Below, in pieces: positions 12,272 to 23,624 of a stretch of 64,000 nt of DNA. This DNA comes from a virus. The position numbers were made by a program, and so were the translations under genes. Position 1 is the stretch's first letter, and each line of letters begins with the position of its first letter. The notes under the pieces were generated by a model, which did not search any database, was not told the origin of the DNA, and saw nothing but the letters and a program-made list of their open reading frames with translations. The stretch is taken from positions 1 to 64,000 of IMG/VR virus record IMGVR_UViG_3300030004_000014, one strand, 5' to 3'.

Positions 12272-12291
12272 AAATATATATTACTATATTG
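12272..12291 (+). promoter_or_regulatory. Class A promoter-like motif, best copy
   Basis: AAATATATATTACTATATTG, identical to the copy at 18274. Its last G is the first base of the tRNA-like gene. Confidence 0.6.
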
Positions 12292-12362
12292 AGTTTATAG
12301 CTCAGTCGGTAGAGCGCGAGTATTTATATTCGATGTCGTTGGTTCGAGTCCAACTAAACTTT
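12291..12362 (+). tRNA. tRNA-like gene, anticodon uncertain
   Basis: A cloverleaf can be drawn. Acceptor GAGTTTA pairs with TAAACTT (one G-T). The D arm is GCTC-AGTCGGTA-GAGC. The T arm is GTTGG-TTCGAGT-CCAAC. The anticodon stem CGAGT/ATTCG leaves only a six-base loop (ATTTAT), or eight if the last pair opens, so the anticodon cannot be assigned with confidence. No CCA is encoded. It is either an aberrant or degraded phage tRNA or a tRNA mimic. The beta subunit gene ends on the opposite strand directly downstream. Confidence 0.6.
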
Positions 12363-13818: not shown

Positions 13819-14262
13819 CGATATCTTCAATAGGAGTCGTTACTTCCTACCCGTCTCTTTTGGAAGGAGACAGCTCTATGTTTCCATAGATGTCGAGACT
13901 ATATCTTCATCCTGCTCATACGAGGGAGGATGTCTCTCATTTCCATCTCACTTAAGATGTACAGATTGAAAAGATCTTAGTCGTTGAACGTTCTCCATGG
14001 CACATCATCCGATGTTCTGTAGGAGCTTCGCTGCTAATGAGGATCTTTGATCCTACGGTTGCCCATTTCCTATCCCAGTATGACTCTGGGGTCATCCGTC
14101 TCGTTTTCAGACCATCACGATTGTCGTTACCAACTGCGTTGTGGTGAGACAGCTTTAGGGGTTTCCAGCAATTAGAGAGAATTCTATCTCAAGATTTCAC
14201 TTGAGTAGGACAGCTGTTCTGAATGATCTTACACGGATAGTATCCGTTTCATTCAGTTTTCT
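13819..14262 (-). ncRNA. Group I intron in the beta subunit gene
   Basis: The 444 bases between the beta exons show the conserved core on the minus strand: a P-like segment with GCTGGAAACCCCTAAAGCT (about 14152-14170), Q (AATGGGCAACCGTAGG, 14052-14067), R with GTTCAACGACTA (about 13978-13989) and S (AAGATATAGTCTC, 13895-13907). GACTA in R pairs with TAGTC in S (P7). The proposed boundaries follow group I rules (exon ends in T, intron ends in G) and join in frame as ...INED|AKRAN..., matching the bacterial beta sequence DDANRA. I could not find a convincing P1 by eye, so exact ends may shift. No ORF lies inside. Confidence 0.88.
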
Positions 14263-17200
14263 ATCTTCGTTGATTGCACACGGCATCAGCATAGATGTCA
14301 ATGATAATACCTGAGTTGCTTTAATCTTTTTAAGATCAACACTATCAAGATCGTAAGTTCCACGAATATCATTAATAACAGGATCTACTGATAAATAAGA
14401 TTTAATAGCAACCTTACCAGAATCAGGAGTACATTCAGATAATACACCAACGCCGTCTTCTGGATATGTTCTATCATCGACCATAAATGATTGAGCAGTT
14501 CTACCACCCTGCCCGGCATAAGTAACCGTTAACTTATCTTGAATTTCATGAATAGGATTAATTTCATCAAATAACTGAACAGACTGATCATTAAGAATTT
14601 CATAAAAAACAGCATCTGGATTAATAGAGAATGATTTTTTATTAACTCGTTGATTTCTATAAGTAGCATAACTACGAGCCATATGGTTATAAAGAACAGT
14701 TACCAATCTCTCATATCCACGAGTTCTTAGATTTCTCATAGAAGATGTCTGAATAGCATAATCGTAAGATAACATTTCAGTTGCTTTAACCAATAAATTA
14801 AAGAAGTCTGTAGGCATATTCATCTTCTTTAAAGTATCTCTTGTAATAGTATCAATAAAGAAATCAAAGTTATCAGTAATACCTTTTAGATAGTTAACCT
14901 TTTCTCCATTATCTAACAACATAACGTAATAGGCATCTTTCTCATTTAAGTCTTTTAATTCAAAGTTAGAAGTATTGTATTTTAAGAGTCCTGAAACAAT
15001 TAAAGACTTTTCAATAGGATATCGATCAAACACTAAATATCCATCACTAAAGGGAACAATAATAGATGATAACTTATCTTTAGGAATATCTCTCTTTTCA
15101 GTATAAAAAGTATAGTCTATTTTAAGTTGTTTAAGAACTTGTGTAAGTCCATACTGAAAGCCCATAATAAAAATAATAGGAAAGTTCTTATCTAGGATCT
15201 TTAATTCAGTCCACTCATGTACTACTTTAGGTAATGGCATTTTTCCTTTAAATTCTGATACTAATATGTCAAGTATACAAGAGGAGTTTACTTCTGTATT
15301 TGTCTTCAAATCTATTTCATGAATAACATTATCAAAACCAAAGAATAATAAATTCTTATTTTTCATGCCGCAACAAACACCATACTTTTTCTCTAATGGA
15401 ATGACTTTGTCTTTCTCTAGAATCTTTTTAACAAAATCAAATCTTTCTGTAAGATCAAAGAATAACTGATAATTTGTTGTGATGAGTTGACTAAACTTAT
15501 CAGCAACACATGTATATTCATACGGAAGTTTAGTAGGTGATTTCAATGCACCATAAACAATAGTTAGTCCTATTTTACTCTTATAAATATTGGCAATATA
15601 ATTCTGAATAAATATTCTAAAACTATGAACCTTATGTTTATTTCTTTCAACAATAGTTTTGTTATAGTTAGAAGCTAGTGAAACTCTATTAGGAGCCACT
15701 TTACATATAGGAACATTAACTTCTTGTTTAATCATTCTCGACTTAATACCATTTGCTAACATAATACCATCATCACTTACTATTGGAAGTTTAAAGACAA
15801 CTTTGTGTTTCTTACCTTCCATATCTTCATATGTAAACTTAAATCTCTTTACTCTATTGATTCTAGAGATTTCTTCACTCTCTTCGATATCAGTTAAGAA
15901 CAACCCAACACTATGAAAATGTAATGCAACATTAGCAATATCTTTATATAAATTTTCATTTATGTAATGTTCATCTAATTTAATAGCAGATGAAGATAAC
16001 ATAGATTCATCAAGTACATGATCCTTTAAGAAATTTAATTTATTTTTACTTATAGCAACATCTGGAGTTGCATCAATATGTTCAGATAATGATTTATTAT
16101 TTAGTTTAACACCTTTATAAATCTGAGCAACTCTTTTTAATCTCTTTTGCTGAGCTTCAGAAAGATTAGGATAATTATTAATATAATCAACTGCTTGATT
16201 GTCGATGATAGAAGAAGGAATATTATCACTTAATTCTTGAACTTCAATATCTTTACCTTGTACTTTAATAGCATTACGAATAATAACAAGATAGTGATTA
16301 TACTTAATAGTTTTTTCTTTGTCTTTTGAAACAGGTATAAGCCAGGTATACCAGCGTTCTAGCGCATGTAAGTTTAAATATCTAATTCCAGTTTCTGATG
16401 TTAGGACATCATCTTCGCTATTCAGAATAATCTTCTTTATAGTCTTTTCACCAAAGAAAATTTCAAACCGATTTGCTTTAATAAAAGTATCTTTAGAAAG
16501 TGAATTATTTGATCTCTTCTCTTTTAATAAATGTTCTATAAACTTAATAAATTTTTCACTTTCATCACTGGAATGAATATCAAGATCGTTTGTAGTATCG
16601 ATAAGGTTATGCATAACCATAGCACCACTAGAGCATATTACTAGCTTCTCTAAACTATCTTTATTAAATATTTTCATCTTCTTAATAATATCTACTCTTG
16701 TCATAGGTTTATTTGTTAATAAATCTAATTCATCATCGTCTTCAATATCAATTATTTGTTGTTCGTCTTGATTTTCTTCTTTTAATGTTTCTAATTCAGT
16801 CAAGTTATCAATATCTATCAATTTAATAAGTTTGTTAGTATTTGCTTTTAAACTACTAACATTTTGATCTTTAGGAATATCATTTTTATCTTCATCTGTT
16901 ATTTCTGTATGTTCTGTAATATCATTATCTTCAGTATCGTCATCTTCTCTACCTTGAGTTTCAACAATCTTATCGTAGCCATGTTCGTCTAAGTTATCAG
17001 TATCTATATTCATATGTCCGGCTAATTGTAGATTTGTAATATGTTTCATAACACTTAGCATCATTGATGTATCTTTAACTTTATCAAACATATGTCTCAT
17101 ATCACCAAGATTATAAATAATGGCTTTATCACCAGCTGTTAAAATAATATTTGTTCTGTCTAATTCTGGTACTGTCAATTCATTAAATAAAGAAGTAGCA

Positions 17201-17949
17201 TTAACAAATTCATCTTTTTCTTTTACTCTAGAAACAAAGTTAAATAAGTGGATTAAGAAGTAATAGGTAAAGTCTTTACAATTCTTGAATTTAAGATTTT
17301 GATAATTAATTTCTTTCATAGTTGTTGTAAATGAAGATCTCTTATAAATGATAGAAGAAATCGGAATATGAATATAGTGAAGTTTGTGATCAATCTTAAC
17401 AGTTGTATCTAAGATAGTTTTTAAAATAGCTTCAAATGTTCTATATCCTTGTAGTTTTCCACCAATAGGTTGTGCTGTTGTAATAGCATTATAATTAACA
17501 ATAGGAAGAACATTACTTTTATTGAGCATAGATGCTAACATACTTGATCTTTTAACATTATGATGTTTCTTAAAGAAGTTTTGAATCTCTGATGTAAAAG
17601 ATTGAGGTCTATACTTTAAGTTATCATCAATAAAGAATCTAGACTCTTTTTCTGGTAAAGCTAACTGATTCCATAAATAAAGAGTAAATTTCTCATTTTT
17701 AATAAATGTATCATTTAGATCTGGAGATATGGTTAAGTGTTTATTCTGTAAAAATTGGTCAACGACATGATAAACTGAATTATTAGGAAGTTGTAAGTTT
17801 TCAACTCTAACTAATAAGTTAGGAATATTAGATCTTTTCCATGTTGTATATTTAGTTTTAAACTGTTGAAAAACAAATTTTTCAAGAGCAGCTTCTTCAT
17901 TGAAAGTTACAATACCACCATCCTCTGTTTGAAATGTATATGGCTCCAT
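14263..17949 (-). CDS. rpoB: RNA polymerase beta subunit, 5' exon
   Basis: First 1229 residues of the beta subunit; the spliced protein would be about 1712 residues, longer than bacterial beta (~1340). Recognisable beta sequence is in the last 250 residues: NPIHEIQDKLTVTYAGQGG, then RTYPEDGVGVLSECTPDSGK (bacterial HpthyGRvcPIETPEGpNiGL), and LTSMLMPCAINED, like bacterial SLIPFLEHDDA. Residues about 330-420 are a very acidic insert. Without splicing, reading continues to a stop at 14197 inside the intron and gives a useless truncated beta. The partners, two beta' pieces, are at 21882 and 55483. Whether this is the virion-packaged or late enzyme is unknown. Confidence 0.85.
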
Positions 17950-19449: not shown

Positions 19450-19725
19450 CTATAAATCAAGATGTTCTGATAGAGTACAATATCCAATACTTTCATTAGT
19501 AACATTTCTTCTAATATTAACAAGTTCGCAACAATTATTATTTATAACAGTTTGTCCATCATACATAATAATTTCATCATTACAATATTTTTTAATATTT
19601 GTAATAATCACCATAGCATTAGGGACGTGATTTTTAAAAATAGGATCATTGATCTGACACATTGTAACGTCACCAATTTTCAAAGACTTTGAAAAAGTTT
19701 GTATTTGTGACATTTCAAATGACAT
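19450..19725 (-). CDS. Unknown 91-aa protein downstream of maturase
   Basis: Last gene of the radical-SAM operon, starting 6 bases after the maturase stop. It is a small, probably beta-rich protein (SLKIGDVTMCQINDP, then NAMVIITNIKKY and EIIMYDGQTVI) with five Cys, including a CC pair. No family recognised. Position suggests either an accessory factor of the modification system (a substrate-recognition protein, for example) or an independent small barrel protein. I see no clear PqqD-like winged-helix pattern. Confidence 0.7.
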   Translation of the reverse strand: MSFEMSQIQTFSKSLKIGDVTMCQINDPIFKNHVPNAMVIITNIKKYCNDEIIMYDGQTVINNNCCELVNIRRNVTNESIGYCTLSEHLDL

Positions 19726-19731
19726 CCTATT

Positions 19732-21027
19732 TTAGACTGGGAGTTTAAATTTATCTACAGAAAGGCCAAAAATGTTTTTTCTACTTTCTGGCAAAGTATC
19801 AGAACATATATAAAGAGGTACATAACCAGTTTGTGATTCAAATGCAACAGCAAATAAAGGAATAAGATTTGTATAAGACATTTCGCAGGATGAAGCAAAT
19901 AACTCATCTTGAATAAAGAAACAACTTCCTCTACATGTAGATAACACAGGACAATCTTTACAATTCTCTCGTCTAGACCAATGTGTACCAGTATTTAATT
20001 TTACTTCATCGAGTTTTGTAATATCACCGATTTTATGAGATTCACCATTCTGAGCTATGGTATTAGCAGATGTATTTTGACATGTCAATATATCCCCATT
20101 CATATTAACAACGAGAACATTTTCTGCATCTAAACCACAACCTTGTGGATCATTAACATGACTTTCAACATTAAAATGGGAAGTCATAACATTTTTTTGA
20201 TTTGGTAATCTATCAAATAAACCAGGATTTTGTTTAAACTCTAACCAGTTATATAGACGTAAACTTTGCATTTCTTCATGAGTGAAATTAATCGAATCTT
20301 TACTATCATCAGAATAAGCAACAACATATCCCATTTCCGAGAAATTGATGATATCTCTCTTAGGAAATTTATTCATAAAGAATTCAATAATTTTTGATCT
20401 AGAGTAATTTTGTTTATTAAGAACAGATCCGAAACAGAATCTACCTTTGAATTTTTCCAAAATATAGTCGATAACTTCATAGTTAGTATCTAATGGATCA
20501 TCACCACGGACGTGTTGTCCAGGGCCATCGTGAGACATAGACATGGTAAATCCATTATCAAATAGAAAGTCAGCAATTTCTTTTGTAAGAAGACTACCAT
20601 TAGTAATAATACCAAAATTAGTTTTTGGCATAAGCGGTCTTAGTTTTTCAATAAGAGGTTTTAATTTTTTCCAATAAACTAATGGTTCTCCGCCCCAAAA
20701 CTGTAATTTCCTAATACCACTTAAATCTACATTATCTATTAATTTATTAACAAATTCATCAACATCGTACTTATCTTTTGTTTCAGAGTGCGCTAAGAAT
20801 TTCTGAGAACAATAACTACAATTGAAATTACAAGAAATGCCGAGCTGAATTTTCATGAAATAAGGAGTTCTTGATTTCTTACACGGAGTTTCTTTAGATA
20901 CACTAAACGGAACTATAACTTCTGTAGATTCAATTTCCTTAGCTGAAATTCTATTCGTAAGACTATCAAAATAAAAATACTTTTGTTCTTCAGTTTCCCA
21001 ATCTTCACAAAGAATTTTATAAATCAT
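19732..21027 (-). CDS. Radical SAM/SPASM peptide-maturase-like enzyme
   Basis: 431 residues. The radical SAM cluster motif CNFNCSYC is at about residues 66-73, followed by FWGGEPLVYW (the GGE that binds SAM) and SMSHDGPG. The C-terminus holds a full SPASM set for two extra Fe-S clusters: C297, then G-x4-C ending at C316, then C356-x2-C-x5-C-x3-C369 and C381. SPASM enzymes of this layout modify peptides or proteins, often forming thioether or C-C links at Cys. The ATG at 21027 with GAGGAG upstream is preferred to an overlapping start at 21066. It begins 17 bases after an extremely Cys-rich gene, its probable substrate. Confidence 0.92.
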   Translation of the reverse strand: MIYKILCEDWETEEQKYFYFDSLTNRISAKEIESTEVIVPFSVSKETPCKKSRTPYFMKIQLGISCNFNCSYCSQKFLAHSETKDKYDVDEFVNKLIDNVDLSGIRKLQFWGGEPLVYWKKLKPLIEKLRPLMPKTNFGIITNGSLLTKEIADFLFDNGFTMSMSHDGPGQHVRGDDPLDTNYEVIDYILEKFKGRFCFGSVLNKQNYSRSKIIEFFMNKFPKRDIINFSEMGYVVAYSDDSKDSINFTHEEMQSLRLYNWLEFKQNPGLFDRLPNQKNVMTSHFNVESHVNDPQGCGLDAENVLVVNMNGDILTCQNTSANTIAQNGESHKIGDITKLDEVKLNTGTHWSRRENCKDCPVLSTCRGSCFFIQDELFASSCEMSYTNLIPLFAVAFESQTGYVPLYICSDTLPESRKNIFGLSVDKFKLPV

Positions 21028-21043
21028 TGTACTTTTCTCCTCA

Positions 21044-21571
21044 TCAGTCACCGGAACCGGCACCATTAGACAAGTCTACGATCGAACAATTACAGTTACA
21101 ATTGTATTGACAATTACAATTACAATTACAATCGGCTTGTATACCAGTTGTATGACTATAAGCACACTGGTTTGTACCCATTGGAGTACAAGCACAATTA
21201 CATTGTACCATATCCTCATTATAAATCCAATTTAAACCATCATAACAAGCATCGTAAGTAATAACAATTCCGCATTGAGAACCATCAAGTTTATAATAAT
21301 TAGGACTACTAAAATTACACACAGATTCTTGCACACACTGTCCAGTAGAAGCACAATTTGTTGTAGTAGAAGTCGCTGTTCTTGTAATACTATTTTGAGA
21401 AGAAACAGGAGTAAAATAATTATATCCTCTTAAAGATTGTAACCCGTTTGCCATTCCATAAGGAGTATTTGCTTTAATAGTTGCCATACTCAATGTAGCA
21501 TTAGAAGCGTTACCCATTAATACATCTATATCAGAAAAATTAATAGCACCAGATGTAGGAATATTTGTCAT
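21044..21571 (-). CDS. Cys-rich virion-like protein, candidate maturase substrate
   Basis: 175 residues in two parts. Residues 1-52 (SGAINFSDIDVLMG, then LQSLRGYNYF) resemble the start of phage fibre/structural proteins with an IsfsdIn.elg pattern. Residues 73-162 hold all 16 Cys (73, 79, 85, 100, 109, 124, 126, 128, 136, 148, 150, 152, 154, 158, 160, 162), including an alternating Asn-Cys run at 148-162. The tail is Gly/Ser-rich. Such a Cys load in a cytoplasmic phage product makes little sense without metal binding or enzymatic cross-linking, and the radical SAM gene follows at once. The ATG overlaps the upstream stop (ATGA), so translation is coupled. Confidence 0.85.
   Translation of the reverse strand: MTNIPTSGAINFSDIDVLMGNASNATLSMATIKANTPYGMANGLQSLRGYNYFTPVSSQNSITRTATSTTTNCASTGQCVQESVCNFSSPNYYKLDGSQCGIVITYDACYDGLNWIYNEDMVQCNCACTPMGTNQCAYSHTTGIQADCNCNCNCQYNCNCNCSIVDLSNGAGSGD
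21086..21130. repeat. Hexanucleotide repeat coding Asn-Cys
   Basis: About seven copies of a six-base unit close to ACAATT (plus strand), coding the Cys-Asn alternation of residues 148-162. Slippage could change the number of Cys residues without breaking the frame. Confidence 0.7.
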
Positions 21572-21864
21572 TGTTGATTACTCGTCAAATAAAGTAACAG
21601 ATCATTTATGTCTGTACTGCCAGTTTCTATTCTTAATTTAATAAGATCTATGATTTCTCCTGTTGTATCAGATTTAATTTGTGTAGCAAGTTCTGTGGCA
21701 TAAGTCGTTAACGTATCATTAAAAAATCCATAAATATCTTGTTCTGTTAATATAGTAGTTTCTATAGTACTTTTACCTGTTGTATCAGCAGCAACTAATT
21801 TAGTTTTATAGGCAGTAATAGCTGTTGTTATCTGATCATTTGTAAAACTGGACGCAATGGGCAT
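21568..21864 (-). CDS. Unknown Thr-rich 98-aa protein
   Basis: Acidic, Thr-rich helical protein (TTAITAYKTKLVAADTTGKS; LATQIKSDTTGEIIDLIKLR). Not recognised. Its stop overlaps the start of the Cys-rich gene (ATGA), which suggests coordinated amounts. It could be a small structural partner or chaperone of that protein. Good ribosome site (GGAGAGAAAAGGA) before the ATG. Confidence 0.7.
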   Translation of the reverse strand: MPIASSFTNDQITTAITAYKTKLVAADTTGKSTIETTILTEQDIYGFFNDTLTTYATELATQIKSDTTGEIIDLIKLRIETGSTDINDLLLYLTSNQQ

Positions 21865-21881: not shown

Positions 21882-23549
21882 TTAGAAAGGTCTTGAGACA
21901 GCTAATGCAAAATAATCAATACCATTTGTCTGTGCACCAATTAATAGTTGTTTCTGACTATTAATAACGGAAGCAATACTATTTAAATAATTTAAGTTTT
22001 CTATATTTGCTGTATCTGACATCATTATGTTTCCAGAAGTCATATCGCCATCATAATCAGCATCAAGACCGGGTGCTCTTAATGCCGCAATAGTACAAGA
22101 ATTATTAATAGGATTATCTAGGACAGGATATTGATTATATATCTTTCTTAAATTACCAGAAATAGCTGATCTCAGTTTTATGATACGACCAGGTGTCGTT
22201 GAAACCAAATGTATTTTACTGGGATAACAGGATTCATTCTGAATAACAGGATATCTAGTATTAAACATTGTCTTTTCGATACCGTTATGAATAGCACTGA
22301 ATGTTGACAAATAGAAAAGTTCTAACCAGGTTAAAGGTCTAATATATTCTTTTTTGATCTGTCTATTAAAAACATTTTTAAAGTCATTCATACCACGGAA
22401 TAATGTAATTTCATCTCCTGTATCATATACCATAAACAGATAATATTCTTTATTATTTTTATCTCTAATACTAACAGGACGTTTAGCAAAGTGAGGATTT
22501 TTAAATTTAGAAATAAGATCGCCAATAGCTTCATTTGTATTAAACTTAGCAAGTTCCTGATCAGTTACTTCCGTATATTCTAGATTTAATGTCGATTTAT
22601 TTGTTAATAGAATTTTATTATTACCTCTTTGTCCAAATATAAAATCAAAGAATGCTACTCTAACCCAATGAACAACAGCCGGTTGTAAACCTTTAGCTGC
22701 TTGTAATACACCAATCTTCGTTTCATCTGGTTTTATAACTTGTAAATCATTTGGTGTCATACATTGATATGAAGCACCCGTAATAACATTACGAGTTCCC
22801 CATGTAATCTTACGTTGTGCCCAAACACCATTAATAAATCCTTTTTTACCATCAACGATATTGTAAATATATTCATAAATTTCAACCATCTTCTTTTGTA
22901 AATTTAATCTTACTGTATCGAACACAGCAGATTGCGCATTTTCCAATGAAGATAATGCTAATCCTAAGGATAAAGCGGATGAATAAATCTTATTAATATC
23001 ATCTTGAGAAATACGCTGTTGATCTTCTTCGATATCTCGTAAACCGGCAGGAAGTACTAATAAATATTTTGTAAATAAATTACCTTCTTTCTTATATTTT
23101 TCAATATCTTTAATGCGATCTTCTCTAGCTCTAGATTCAGTTAATTTAAATTCTATTTTAGGAAGATACTTCATAAAGAAAGAGTAACCAGTACCGGCAT
23201 CTATTGTTGTTTCAGGAGTTGGACACTTTTTAAAATCATTGATAGTATTATCAAAGATTGCATATTCTGTACCATTAATAATATTCTCATAAAGAGATCC
23301 TAATTTTATAATATTTTTATAAATGAGAGGTTGTAAAATATAAGTATGCATATCTATATACCCAAAACTAACTAATCTTTTTGTATCACCGATCATTCCA
23401 AAAATCTGTTCTGAGAAAAAACCTTCTGAGTGAAATGATGTACTCGACGGTTCATAAATGGCATGCGACGTTATTGGTAAACAACCATTTTCTTTAATAT
23501 ATTGCTCTGGATTAATAAGCCAAATATTTAATGCATTTTCGACTATCAT
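21882..23549 (-). CDS. rpoC: RNA polymerase beta' subunit, N-terminal part
   Basis: About 555 residues carrying the RNAP active-site motif: GLDADYDGDMTSGN at about residues 494-507, the phage form of NADFDGD, whose three Asp bind catalytic Mg2+. KGFINGVWAQRKITWGTRNVITG corresponds to bacterial GKrGrfRqnLlGKRVDySgRsVI. The protein ends some 50 residues after the active site; the rest of beta' is a separate gene at 55483. The ATG at 23549 follows AAAGGA; an in-frame ATG 33 bases upstream has no such site. It heads the operon that includes the maturase genes. Confidence 0.9.
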   Translation of the reverse strand: MIVENALNIWLINPEQYIKENGCLPITSHAIYEPSSTSFHSEGFFSEQIFGMIGDTKRLVSFGYIDMHTYILQPLIYKNIIKLGSLYENIINGTEYAIFDNTINDFKKCPTPETTIDAGTGYSFFMKYLPKIEFKLTESRAREDRIKDIEKYKKEGNLFTKYLLVLPAGLRDIEEDQQRISQDDINKIYSSALSLGLALSSLENAQSAVFDTVRLNLQKKMVEIYEYIYNIVDGKKGFINGVWAQRKITWGTRNVITGASYQCMTPNDLQVIKPDETKIGVLQAAKGLQPAVVHWVRVAFFDFIFGQRGNNKILLTNKSTLNLEYTEVTDQELAKFNTNEAIGDLISKFKNPHFAKRPVSIRDKNNKEYYLFMVYDTGDEITLFRGMNDFKNVFNRQIKKEYIRPLTWLELFYLSTFSAIHNGIEKTMFNTRYPVIQNESCYPSKIHLVSTTPGRIIKLRSAISGNLRKIYNQYPVLDNPINNSCTIAALRAPGLDADYDGDMTSGNIMMSDTANIENLNYLNSIASVINSQKQLLIGAQTNGIDYFALAVSRPF

Positions 23550-23624
23550 ATTTTTCCTTTCATTATATATATTAGGATTCATAATATCGTGTAATAAGTT
23601 AAATATTATTTATATTAAAAAATC

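Follow-up and report, generated by a model that had tools for sequence, protein, structure and literature searches.

What does a giant phage do with a radical SAM (S-adenosylmethionine) enzyme whose gene lies directly behind that of a cysteine-rich protein? The question is raised by positions 1 to 64,000 of the 88,108-base viral record IMGVR_UViG_3300030004_000014 (this whole stretch of 64,000 bases is referred to as the window), in which a 431-residue enzyme with a radical SAM core and a SPASM domain is encoded next to a 175-residue protein with 16 Cys. A previous, sequence-only reading proposed that the enzyme staples this protein, taken to be a structural one and perhaps a tail tip or fibre. 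Both genes are found where that reading had placed them, as minus-strand open reading frames (ORFs), and the 16 Cys all fall, as it had stated, in the last 103 residues. What is conserved among relatives is a tract of the form (Asn/Ala/Asp-Cys)n, usually C-terminal, and not the 16-Cys protein as such, which had been taken as the key element. We consider it likely that the target of the phage radical SAM/SPASM enzyme is the (Asn-Cys)n tail at the C-terminus of a fibre-type phage protein, into which it would most probably introduce Cys thioether cross-links. The elements concerned are located in the window as follows.

21044..21571, minus strand: putative substrate, an ORF of 175 residues, its 16 Cys (residues 73-162) lying behind a small N-terminal domain; 14 relatives aligned, 22-40% identity
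21416..21571, minus strand: N-terminal ~52 residues of the substrate, of the 'P-x-S-G-x-I-x-x-S-D-I' type and predicted to fold into a small helical domain (pLDDT, predicted local distance difference test, 67-81 by block)
21188..21202, minus strand: first Cys-Asn-Cys-Ala-Cys tract, residues 124-128; W-L-Q or similar ahead in most aligned relatives
21086..21130, minus strand: main (Asn-Cys)n tract, residues 148-162, CNCNCNCQYNCNCNC; the C-terminus is 13 residues further on
19732..21027, minus strand: radical SAM/SPASM enzyme, 431 residues; PHROG 1802, 2e-53
20809..20832, minus strand: radical SAM cluster motif C66-x3-C70-x2-C73, present in 27/27 aligned enzymes
19885..20139, minus strand: SPASM domain, with Cys 297, 316, 356, 359, 365, 369 and 381 conserved in the alignment of 27 enzymes

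The pairing of enzyme and tract is strongly supported, and can be counted from either side. Starting from the tract, IMG/VR was scanned for DNA encoding CNCNCNC, which gave at least 120 stretches; the counts derived from them are among the matches listed. The tract lies inside an ORF of at least 60 residues in 67 stretches, while in the other 53 the motif lies outside an ORF, providing a natural control. By means of a profile built from the enzymes of the window and of the Achromobacter phages JWF and 2-1, the enzyme was detected within the available flank of 45 of the 67 ORF-borne tracts and of none of the 53 controls. All 45 near pairs are on the same strand, the tract gene being upstream of the enzyme in 44 and downstream in one (L043). 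Across whole contigs, a radical SAM domain (E≤0.001) is present in 52/67 versus 1/53 (Fisher 5e-19) and exceeds the Pfam cut-off in 46/67 versus 1/53, the control contigs being shorter on average; among contigs of at least 10 kb the figures are 50/59 and 1/26. These figures count contigs and not independent events, several of them being near-duplicates (L008-L011; L059/L074/L106/L138; L032/L052/L057). With a threshold chosen post hoc, a radical SAM domain is encoded in 50 of the 58 contigs whose tract lies within 40 residues of the C-terminus and in 2 of the 9 others. A chance origin of the pairing and of the tract was considered as well, and is ruled out by sequence shuffles and by the not-in-ORF control.

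The same association is observed when starting from the enzyme. A three-sequence query (window, JWF and 2-1) recovered 17 viral loci, 15 of which contain a Cys-x-Cys-x-Cys ORF with Asn or Asp between the Cys; excluding the window's two copies and JWF, 12 of 14 loci are paired, among which L008-L011 look like one virus. A wider query consisted of 27 enzymes, some of them drawn from tract-bearing loci, so that its counts are not independent, which weakens them as support; of 215 loci each in viruses and in bacterial genomes, the best 80 were used. Here, a tract ORF with at least one Asn or Asp among the X residues lies within 6 kb on the enzyme's strand in 62/80 viral and 58/80 genome loci, although the resulting 120/160 also takes in likely chance tracts, such as L164. 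Against a background of 5/106 control locus-strands, a few of these pairings are to be put down to chance. Loci with at least 3.5 kb before and at least 1.5 kb after the enzyme are tract-paired in 93 of 113 cases, and other ways of counting give similar viral/genome numbers (63/55 for either strand and the whole locus; 62/54 for the enzyme's strand and the whole locus). At 50% identity, 26 of the 33 enzyme clusters from all loci, tract-selected ones included, hold a paired member. Repeated pairing with many different carriers thus lends strong support to a phage maturase whose target is a fibre-type, Cys-rich protein, whereas the suggestion of a jumbo-phage peculiarity has to give way to a broad enzyme-tract system.

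Several loci carry variants of the tail, such as CNCACRC in the Rhodobacteraceae-type loci L182, L183 and L186 or SYCSYCTCACSDCSC in L216 and L217, the latter being left out of the count. In L264 and L274, the neighbour is a 307-residue protein with 14-15 Cys that has no strict tract. Tract-enzyme pairs are also seen in bacterial assemblies (L143-L222, many of them metagenome-assembled genomes), including Limnohabitans, Rhodobacteraceae, Burkholderia paludis and others, with three pairs in Thalassobacter stenotrophicus (L178, L185, L209); these are presumably prophages or binned phage contigs. Three tandem small genes with Cys-tract ends lie near one enzyme gene in L012 (6014-7093), L096 (the L269 contig) and L133.

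It could be argued that the enzyme is an unrelated accessory gene travelling in tail operons, so that the pairing reflects hitch-hiking. Phage structural genes are clustered and co-oriented, as this explanation would require, and the tract is absent in some enzyme relatives; the contig counts of 52/67 versus 1/53 nevertheless speak against it, as does the constancy of the enzyme family while the tract sits on several different bodies (single linkage sorts them into 14 groups, some fibres being perhaps merged too far and some ORFs doubtful). In addition, the window substrate belongs to a group of 34 proteins with an N-terminus of the P-S-G-x-I-x-x-S-D type, and in 14 of these the tract frame is at most 33 bases from the enzyme frame or slightly overlaps it, the enzyme coming first in 16 and the tract gene lying further upstream in 4. 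Hitch-hiking is, on this evidence, very improbable.

The composition of the tract was analysed in 168 unique paired ORFs (198 before the removal of identical ones; 181 loci). Asn occupies 467 of the 718 X positions between Cys (65.0%), followed by Ala (96; 13.4%) and Asp (88; 12.3%), and the first Cys is preceded by Asn in 168 of 209 tracts. The rule by which tracts were defined requires at least one Asn or Asp and therefore favours these two residues, but not Ala. Ala is about as frequent as Asp although it is two base changes away from the Asn codons and Asp is one. The remaining one-base neighbours of Asn codons, Ser, Thr, His, Tyr, Lys and Ile, together fill 17/718 positions, Ser, Thr, His and Tyr accounting for the 17. 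A DNA-repeat artefact was also considered and rejected, as Asn or Cys codons are mixed in 125 of the 142 tract ORFs that have two or more Asn. In the window protein, the Cys are at positions 73, 79, 85, 100, 109, 124, 126, 128, 136, 148, 150, 152, 154, 158, 160 and 162. It contains eight Asn-Cys dipeptides (20,000 shuffles give a mean of 2.0 and a maximum of 8) and three CxCxC tracts, a number reached by none of the 20,000 shuffles.

Cys-x-Cys repeats are typical metal ligands, and the tract might accordingly be a metal- or Fe-S-binding tail that forms a metallothionein-like tip, with the radical SAM enzyme serving another step. A radical enzyme, which a metal site would not need, is encoded in 50/58 of the contigs with a C-terminal tract, and metal binding would not demand that X be largely Asn, Ala or Asp, which leaves this an improbable explanation.

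The position of the tract is as characteristic as its composition, since it ends within 5 residues of the C-terminus in 126/168 ORFs and within 40 residues in 141/168. Among the 32 ORFs with more than 12 residues beyond the tract, a Hint-type sequence comes next in 9, an S74 domain in 2, a shared module that begins with CSKI[IV]C in 15 and other tails in 6, one of which is the 13-residue end of the window protein. The Hint-type sequence begins at once or within 8 residues after the tract. Hint domains score above the Pfam cut-off in L001, L002 and L053 and below it in L172, L229, L244, L285 and L292, and S74 above it in L013 and L288. Both Hint and S74 domains cleave themselves off the preceding chain; the tract would thus be the mature end in these proteins too, and we infer that such cleavage leaves it there, a striking convergence. 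Hint and S74 fibre ends adjoin the tract in some relatives but not in the window protein, and in tract proteins they would serve to expose the Cys tract. The CSKI[IV]C module, an unnamed region of ~170 residues after the tract in one substrate group (L008-L011, L043, L228, L231, L242, L250 and others), is without Pfam match in L043, L228 and L264, and might be a third type of end that cleaves itself or acts as a chaperone; in 4 of its 15 cases a short CNC is all that stands directly ahead of it.

Regarding the enzyme, its start is most likely at 21027, behind GAGGAG and 16 bases past the stop of the Cys gene, and the annotated start of the JWF enzyme aligns with this position; it may also start at 21066, which would make the two genes overlap. 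It belongs to the radical SAM superfamily according to PF04055 (1.7e-13; 51.5 bits versus a cut-off of 29.5), with CNFNCSYC at residues 66-73. The SPASM motif reads C-x9-15-G-x4-C ... C-x2-C-x5-C-x3-C ... C, and the window enzyme, with C297-x13-G-x4-C316 ... C356-x2-C359-x5-C365-x3-C369 ... C381, is a member of this subfamily. The earlier statement that the radical SAM and SPASM Cys sets are complete is borne out by the 27-enzyme alignment, in which Cys 66, 70, 73, 297, 316, 356, 359, 365 and 369 are kept in 27/27 and C381 in 26. Residues 25-386 match PHROG 1802 (2e-53), a family annotated as 'radical SAM domain-containing protein' with no function listed, to which the JWF and 2-1 enzymes also belong. 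The best NCBIfam match is the PapB model NF047865 (1.5e-21), at 77 bits versus a cut-off of 340, and the viperin model NF038283 gives 52.5 bits versus 180. Assignment to a known NCBIfam maturase was discarded, the cut-off being reached by none of the 25 best of the 68 models matched (E≤1).

At the level of sequence, the seven-Cys SPASM set, which is that of the thioether-forming AlbA and CteB, favours thioether chemistry over the formation of formylglycine. The latter would imply that Cys of the tract are converted as by a sulfatase maturase, yielding aldehyde fibre tips able to react with host amines. The anaerobic sulfatase maturase anSME is indeed the second-best fold match, the JWF gene carries the annotation of an anaerobic sulfatase maturase, and anSME acts on a large protein. 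Phage enzymes and anSME share a similar fold, but the former lack one of the eight SPASM Cys of anSME as well as the Asp that follows the last Cys of auxiliary cluster I (AuxI). In fact, the further Cys between C297 and C316 is absent in 26/27 phage enzymes, the linker ahead of C297 has no column with more than three Cys among the 27, so that there is no conserved eighth Cys, and the residue after C316 is Gln in 25/27 where anSME has Asp. This Asp is the catalytic base of anSME. Moreover, the NCBIfam anSME model scores 54.8 bits, far under its cut-off of 349.45, and the tract lacks the CxPxR-type motif of sulfatases. We therefore regard formylglycine formation as quite improbable.

The AlphaFold model of the window enzyme, based on the 27-sequence alignment, has a pLDDT of 88.8 and a predicted template modelling (TM) score (pTM) of 0.87. 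The nearest solved structures are CteB (5why/5wgg, 9e-12), anSME (4k37, 2e-11) and TigE (8vpo), with TM scores of about 0.5-0.55 (about 0.53-0.55 for the first two). The model also resembles SuiB and the epimerase EpeE, the profile matches EpeE/YydG and SuiB, and the cyclophane maturase YhhB is matched far below cut-off. An enzyme that makes D-residues or C-C links, turning the tract into a beta-helical or ring-bearing tip, would fit the strict residue alternation if its modifications alternated too. Nevertheless, over its length the model fits CteB and anSME best, EpeE being matched in part (TM 0.35). In the alternation it is Cys that never varies, and the enzyme's SPASM Cys are those of CteB/AlbA, so that an epimerase- or cyclophane-type activity appears unlikely. 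Ahead of residue 74 the model shows strands at 2-8, 15-21, 26-28 and 57-61 and no helix, and thus no RRE, the recognition element typical of enzymes for sactipeptides and ranthipeptides, which are ribosomally synthesised and post-translationally modified peptides (RiPPs), in the window enzyme, the one enzyme modelled; its Pfam scan contains none either. Judging from this model, recognition of the tract or the fibre is probably direct.

Returning to thioether formation, several known systems offer points of comparison. The auxiliary clusters of anSME are fully ligated, whereas the open AuxI site of CteB binds a peptide Cys, and AlbA has been inferred to be CteB-like from its seven Cys (PMC6231123). 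A remote residue fills the AuxI site in SuiB (Cys) and in PqqE (Asp) (PMC6231123, PMC8188230). By analogy with CteB and AlbA, the AuxI iron site of the phage enzymes may be open, a non-Cys ligand being possible. PapB forms links between a Cys and an Asp or Glu at a distance of 0-6 residues (PMC9413430), and ruminococcin C contains an Asn-Cys thioether, as well as an Ala-Cys one in an engineered variant (PMC8188230). Because of these PapB and ruminococcin C links, the Asn/Ala/Asp-Cys alternation is a plausible thioether substrate. The close alternation of Cys could suit the type of linking made by PapB, the maturase of freyrasin, although the acceptor in the phage tract would mostly be Asn. Like the sactipeptide and ranthipeptide synthases AlbA and CteB, the phage enzyme combines a radical SAM core and a seven-Cys SPASM domain with an adjacent gene for a putative Cys-rich substrate. 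Unlike them, it has no RRE in its model, it is encoded by a phage, and its substrate appears to be a fibre-type C-terminal tail and not a small leader-bearing peptide. The phage system would thus work like a RiPP thioether maturase, yet it is not classed as one. Among the literature matches listed, which include few subscription journals and preprints, no radical SAM enzyme acting on a phage fibre and no Asn-Cys fibre tail were found, and both the substrate class and its role appear to be new.

The evidence that the carriers are fibre-type proteins comes largely from relatives. A PHROG tail-fibre match (E≤0.01) was obtained for 6 of the 9 tract proteins scanned (L001, L036, L066, L086, L132 and, weakly, L135 at 0.008), with collagen repeats as well in L086. 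The protein of L288, which has the same N-terminus type as the window substrate, ends in S74 and matches several tail-fibre PHROGs, mostly through this end, one of them, phrog_8443, over residues 3-232 (5.6e-6). The 'virion-like' N-terminus of the earlier reading is therefore supported via relatives, while the window protein's own match is weak. Searches with the window substrate found no homologue of the whole protein in the phage collection (tblastn, 1e-5) and no BFVD structure at E≤0.001; the N-terminal 65 residues of a relative likewise gave no tblastn match to that collection at 0.01.

Cultured representatives of the system are available. A tblastn search of 50,697 phage records with the window enzyme matched 11 records, three of which cover at least 80% of it, namely Achromobacter phage JWF (twice) and 2-1, at 37.6-38.1% identity; three further enzymes used as queries revealed no cultured hosts beyond these three records (1e-12). 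Two genes upstream of the enzyme, both phages encode a tail fibre with a tract, NCNCDCNCNCSC in JWF and NCNCDCNCSC in 2-1, directly followed by a Hint domain. Their fibre bodies are unlike the window protein, the common elements being the tract and the enzyme. The JWF fibre includes a shufflon-type region.

The observed pairing, tract position, residue preference and Cys-ligand set, together with the modelled enzyme that shows no RRE, lead us to a model in which the thioether chemistry, the exposure of the mature tract, the location in the virion and the function are all put forward conditionally. The fibre protein would be synthesised with a short Cys-alternating tract at its C-terminus, or exposable there, and a substrate Cys thiolate would bind to the open iron of the enzyme's AuxI cluster. 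The enzyme would then generate a 5'-deoxyadenosyl radical to take a hydrogen from the alternating Asn, Ala or Asp, and the Cys sulphur would be joined to that residue with a change of -2 Da per link. Where Hint or S74 follows the tract, self-cleavage would expose the latter as the mature end, and in many relatives a 2-oxoglutarate (2OG)-Fe(II) oxygenase may supply a further modification, perhaps hydroxylation. The outcome would be a compact fibre tip resistant to reduction and protease, used for attachment or for trimer locking.

The participation of oxygenases is suggested by a census with iterated profiles (E 1e-5, anywhere in the locus). A first 2OG-Fe(II) oxygenase type is present in 47/80 viral and 50/80 genome loci and a second type in 4/80 and 12/80, respectively, neither being found in the 53 control loci; an unnamed family of ~280 residues occurs in 35/80 viral and 57/80 genome loci. 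Seeds of the first type match PHROG 81 and score 20.9 and 21.7 for PF13759, below the cut-off of 27, and a gene downstream in L264 reaches 64.1 for this domain; the seed of the second type is above the PF13640 cut-off. We judge it about as likely as not that, more broadly, tailed phages of many kinds carry a dedicated cassette building a covalently knotted, heavily modified attachment-fibre tip, possibly with three chains stapled together. Such a cassette would comprise an Asn-Cys-tailed fibre, the radical SAM/SPASM enzyme and often 2OG-Fe(II) oxygenases, sometimes with a second radical SAM enzyme and sometimes with a Hint or S74 end that cleaves itself. Near the main enzyme, L018, L019, L029, L066 and L067 have another radical SAM frame that is shorter (341-363 residues), that of L066 matching PHROG 1802.

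A number of observations weigh against the modification of a fibre tail by this enzyme. Phage tail genes in general are normally co-oriented with one another. At the locus itself, the window pair is located amid RNA polymerase subunit genes. No 2OG oxygenase was found in the window with our own profiles, nor was there a match to the second 2OG type or the ~280-residue family, and the three records of the window phage contain no PHROG 81 match. The window substrate has no clear structural-protein match, the tail-fibre PHROG being hit at E 0.13, and its model is poor past residue 53 (mean pLDDT 48.8); three of the nine tract proteins scanned (L029, L043, L044) are without family match. Seven Cys are no proof of an open AuxI site, as a remote ligand such as Asp is possible, and Asp308 is near-invariant in the phage enzymes. 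As to the pairing, the strict tract is absent in 7/33 enzyme clusters, including those of L015 (phage), L190 and L221. The earlier expectation of a Cys-rich neighbour beside every relative of the enzyme holds for most of them and fails in a minority, since there is none at the phage loci L015 and L239 or in the bacterial clusters of L190 (Variovorax, Ramlibacter and others) and L221/L222 (Bacteriovorax types). Conversely, 15 of the 67 tract contigs are devoid of a radical SAM gene; in 7 of these the tract is away from the C-terminus (L028, L034, L058, L084, L093, L102, L139), two appear doubtful (L125, L128), and the remaining 6 (L072, L082, L110, L120, L124, L134) are contigs of 5-19 kb.

Environmental phages carry radical SAM genes without known role. 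One marine T4-like phage genome has 12 radical SAM genes (PMC5332604), radical SAM cassettes distinguish the host-recognition cluster of two related pelagimyophages (PMC7029224), and a cultured Burkholderia jumbo phage has several radical SAM genes together with 2OG oxygenases (PMC11898562). If the present proposal is true, some of these genes would belong to virion assembly and host recognition and no longer to 'auxiliary metabolism', and a share of the radical SAM and oxygenase orphans listed as auxiliary metabolic genes would find an explanation. It would also mean that viruses apply RiPP-like radical chemistry to a fibre end, that the tract acts as a transferable tag for modification, and that viral structural proteins cross-linked by an enzyme form a new class. 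The existence of the cultured phage JWF makes the proposal directly testable.

With respect to the surroundings of the pair, two genes for RNA polymerase beta subunits flank it, at 21882-23582 and 14197-17949, an arrangement that we take to be comparable to that of phiKZ-like jumbo phages. Between the polymerase genes, the minus-strand order is a 98-residue ORF (21568-21864), the Cys protein, the enzyme and a 91-residue ORF (19450-19725); the two small ORFs, both on the minus strand, have no convincing Pfam or PHROG match. The same enzyme (100% identity) and the Cys protein are also held by contigs of 125 and 208 kb. In Burkholderia jumbo phage S13 (L302, PP856017, 60-109 kb), the region gp70-gp82 contains several short radical SAM genes, two 2OG-Fe(II) oxygenases and a cupin. 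No CxC is present among the 24 translated S13 proteins gp60-64 and gp68-86, and gp72, directly after the radical SAM gene gp71, ends in a Cys-His repeat, VCHSSCHTSCHGSRGRR, perhaps another kind of modified tail. Finally, ARAGORN predicts a tRNA-like gene with an odd, two-base anticodon on the plus strand of the window, at 12291-12362.

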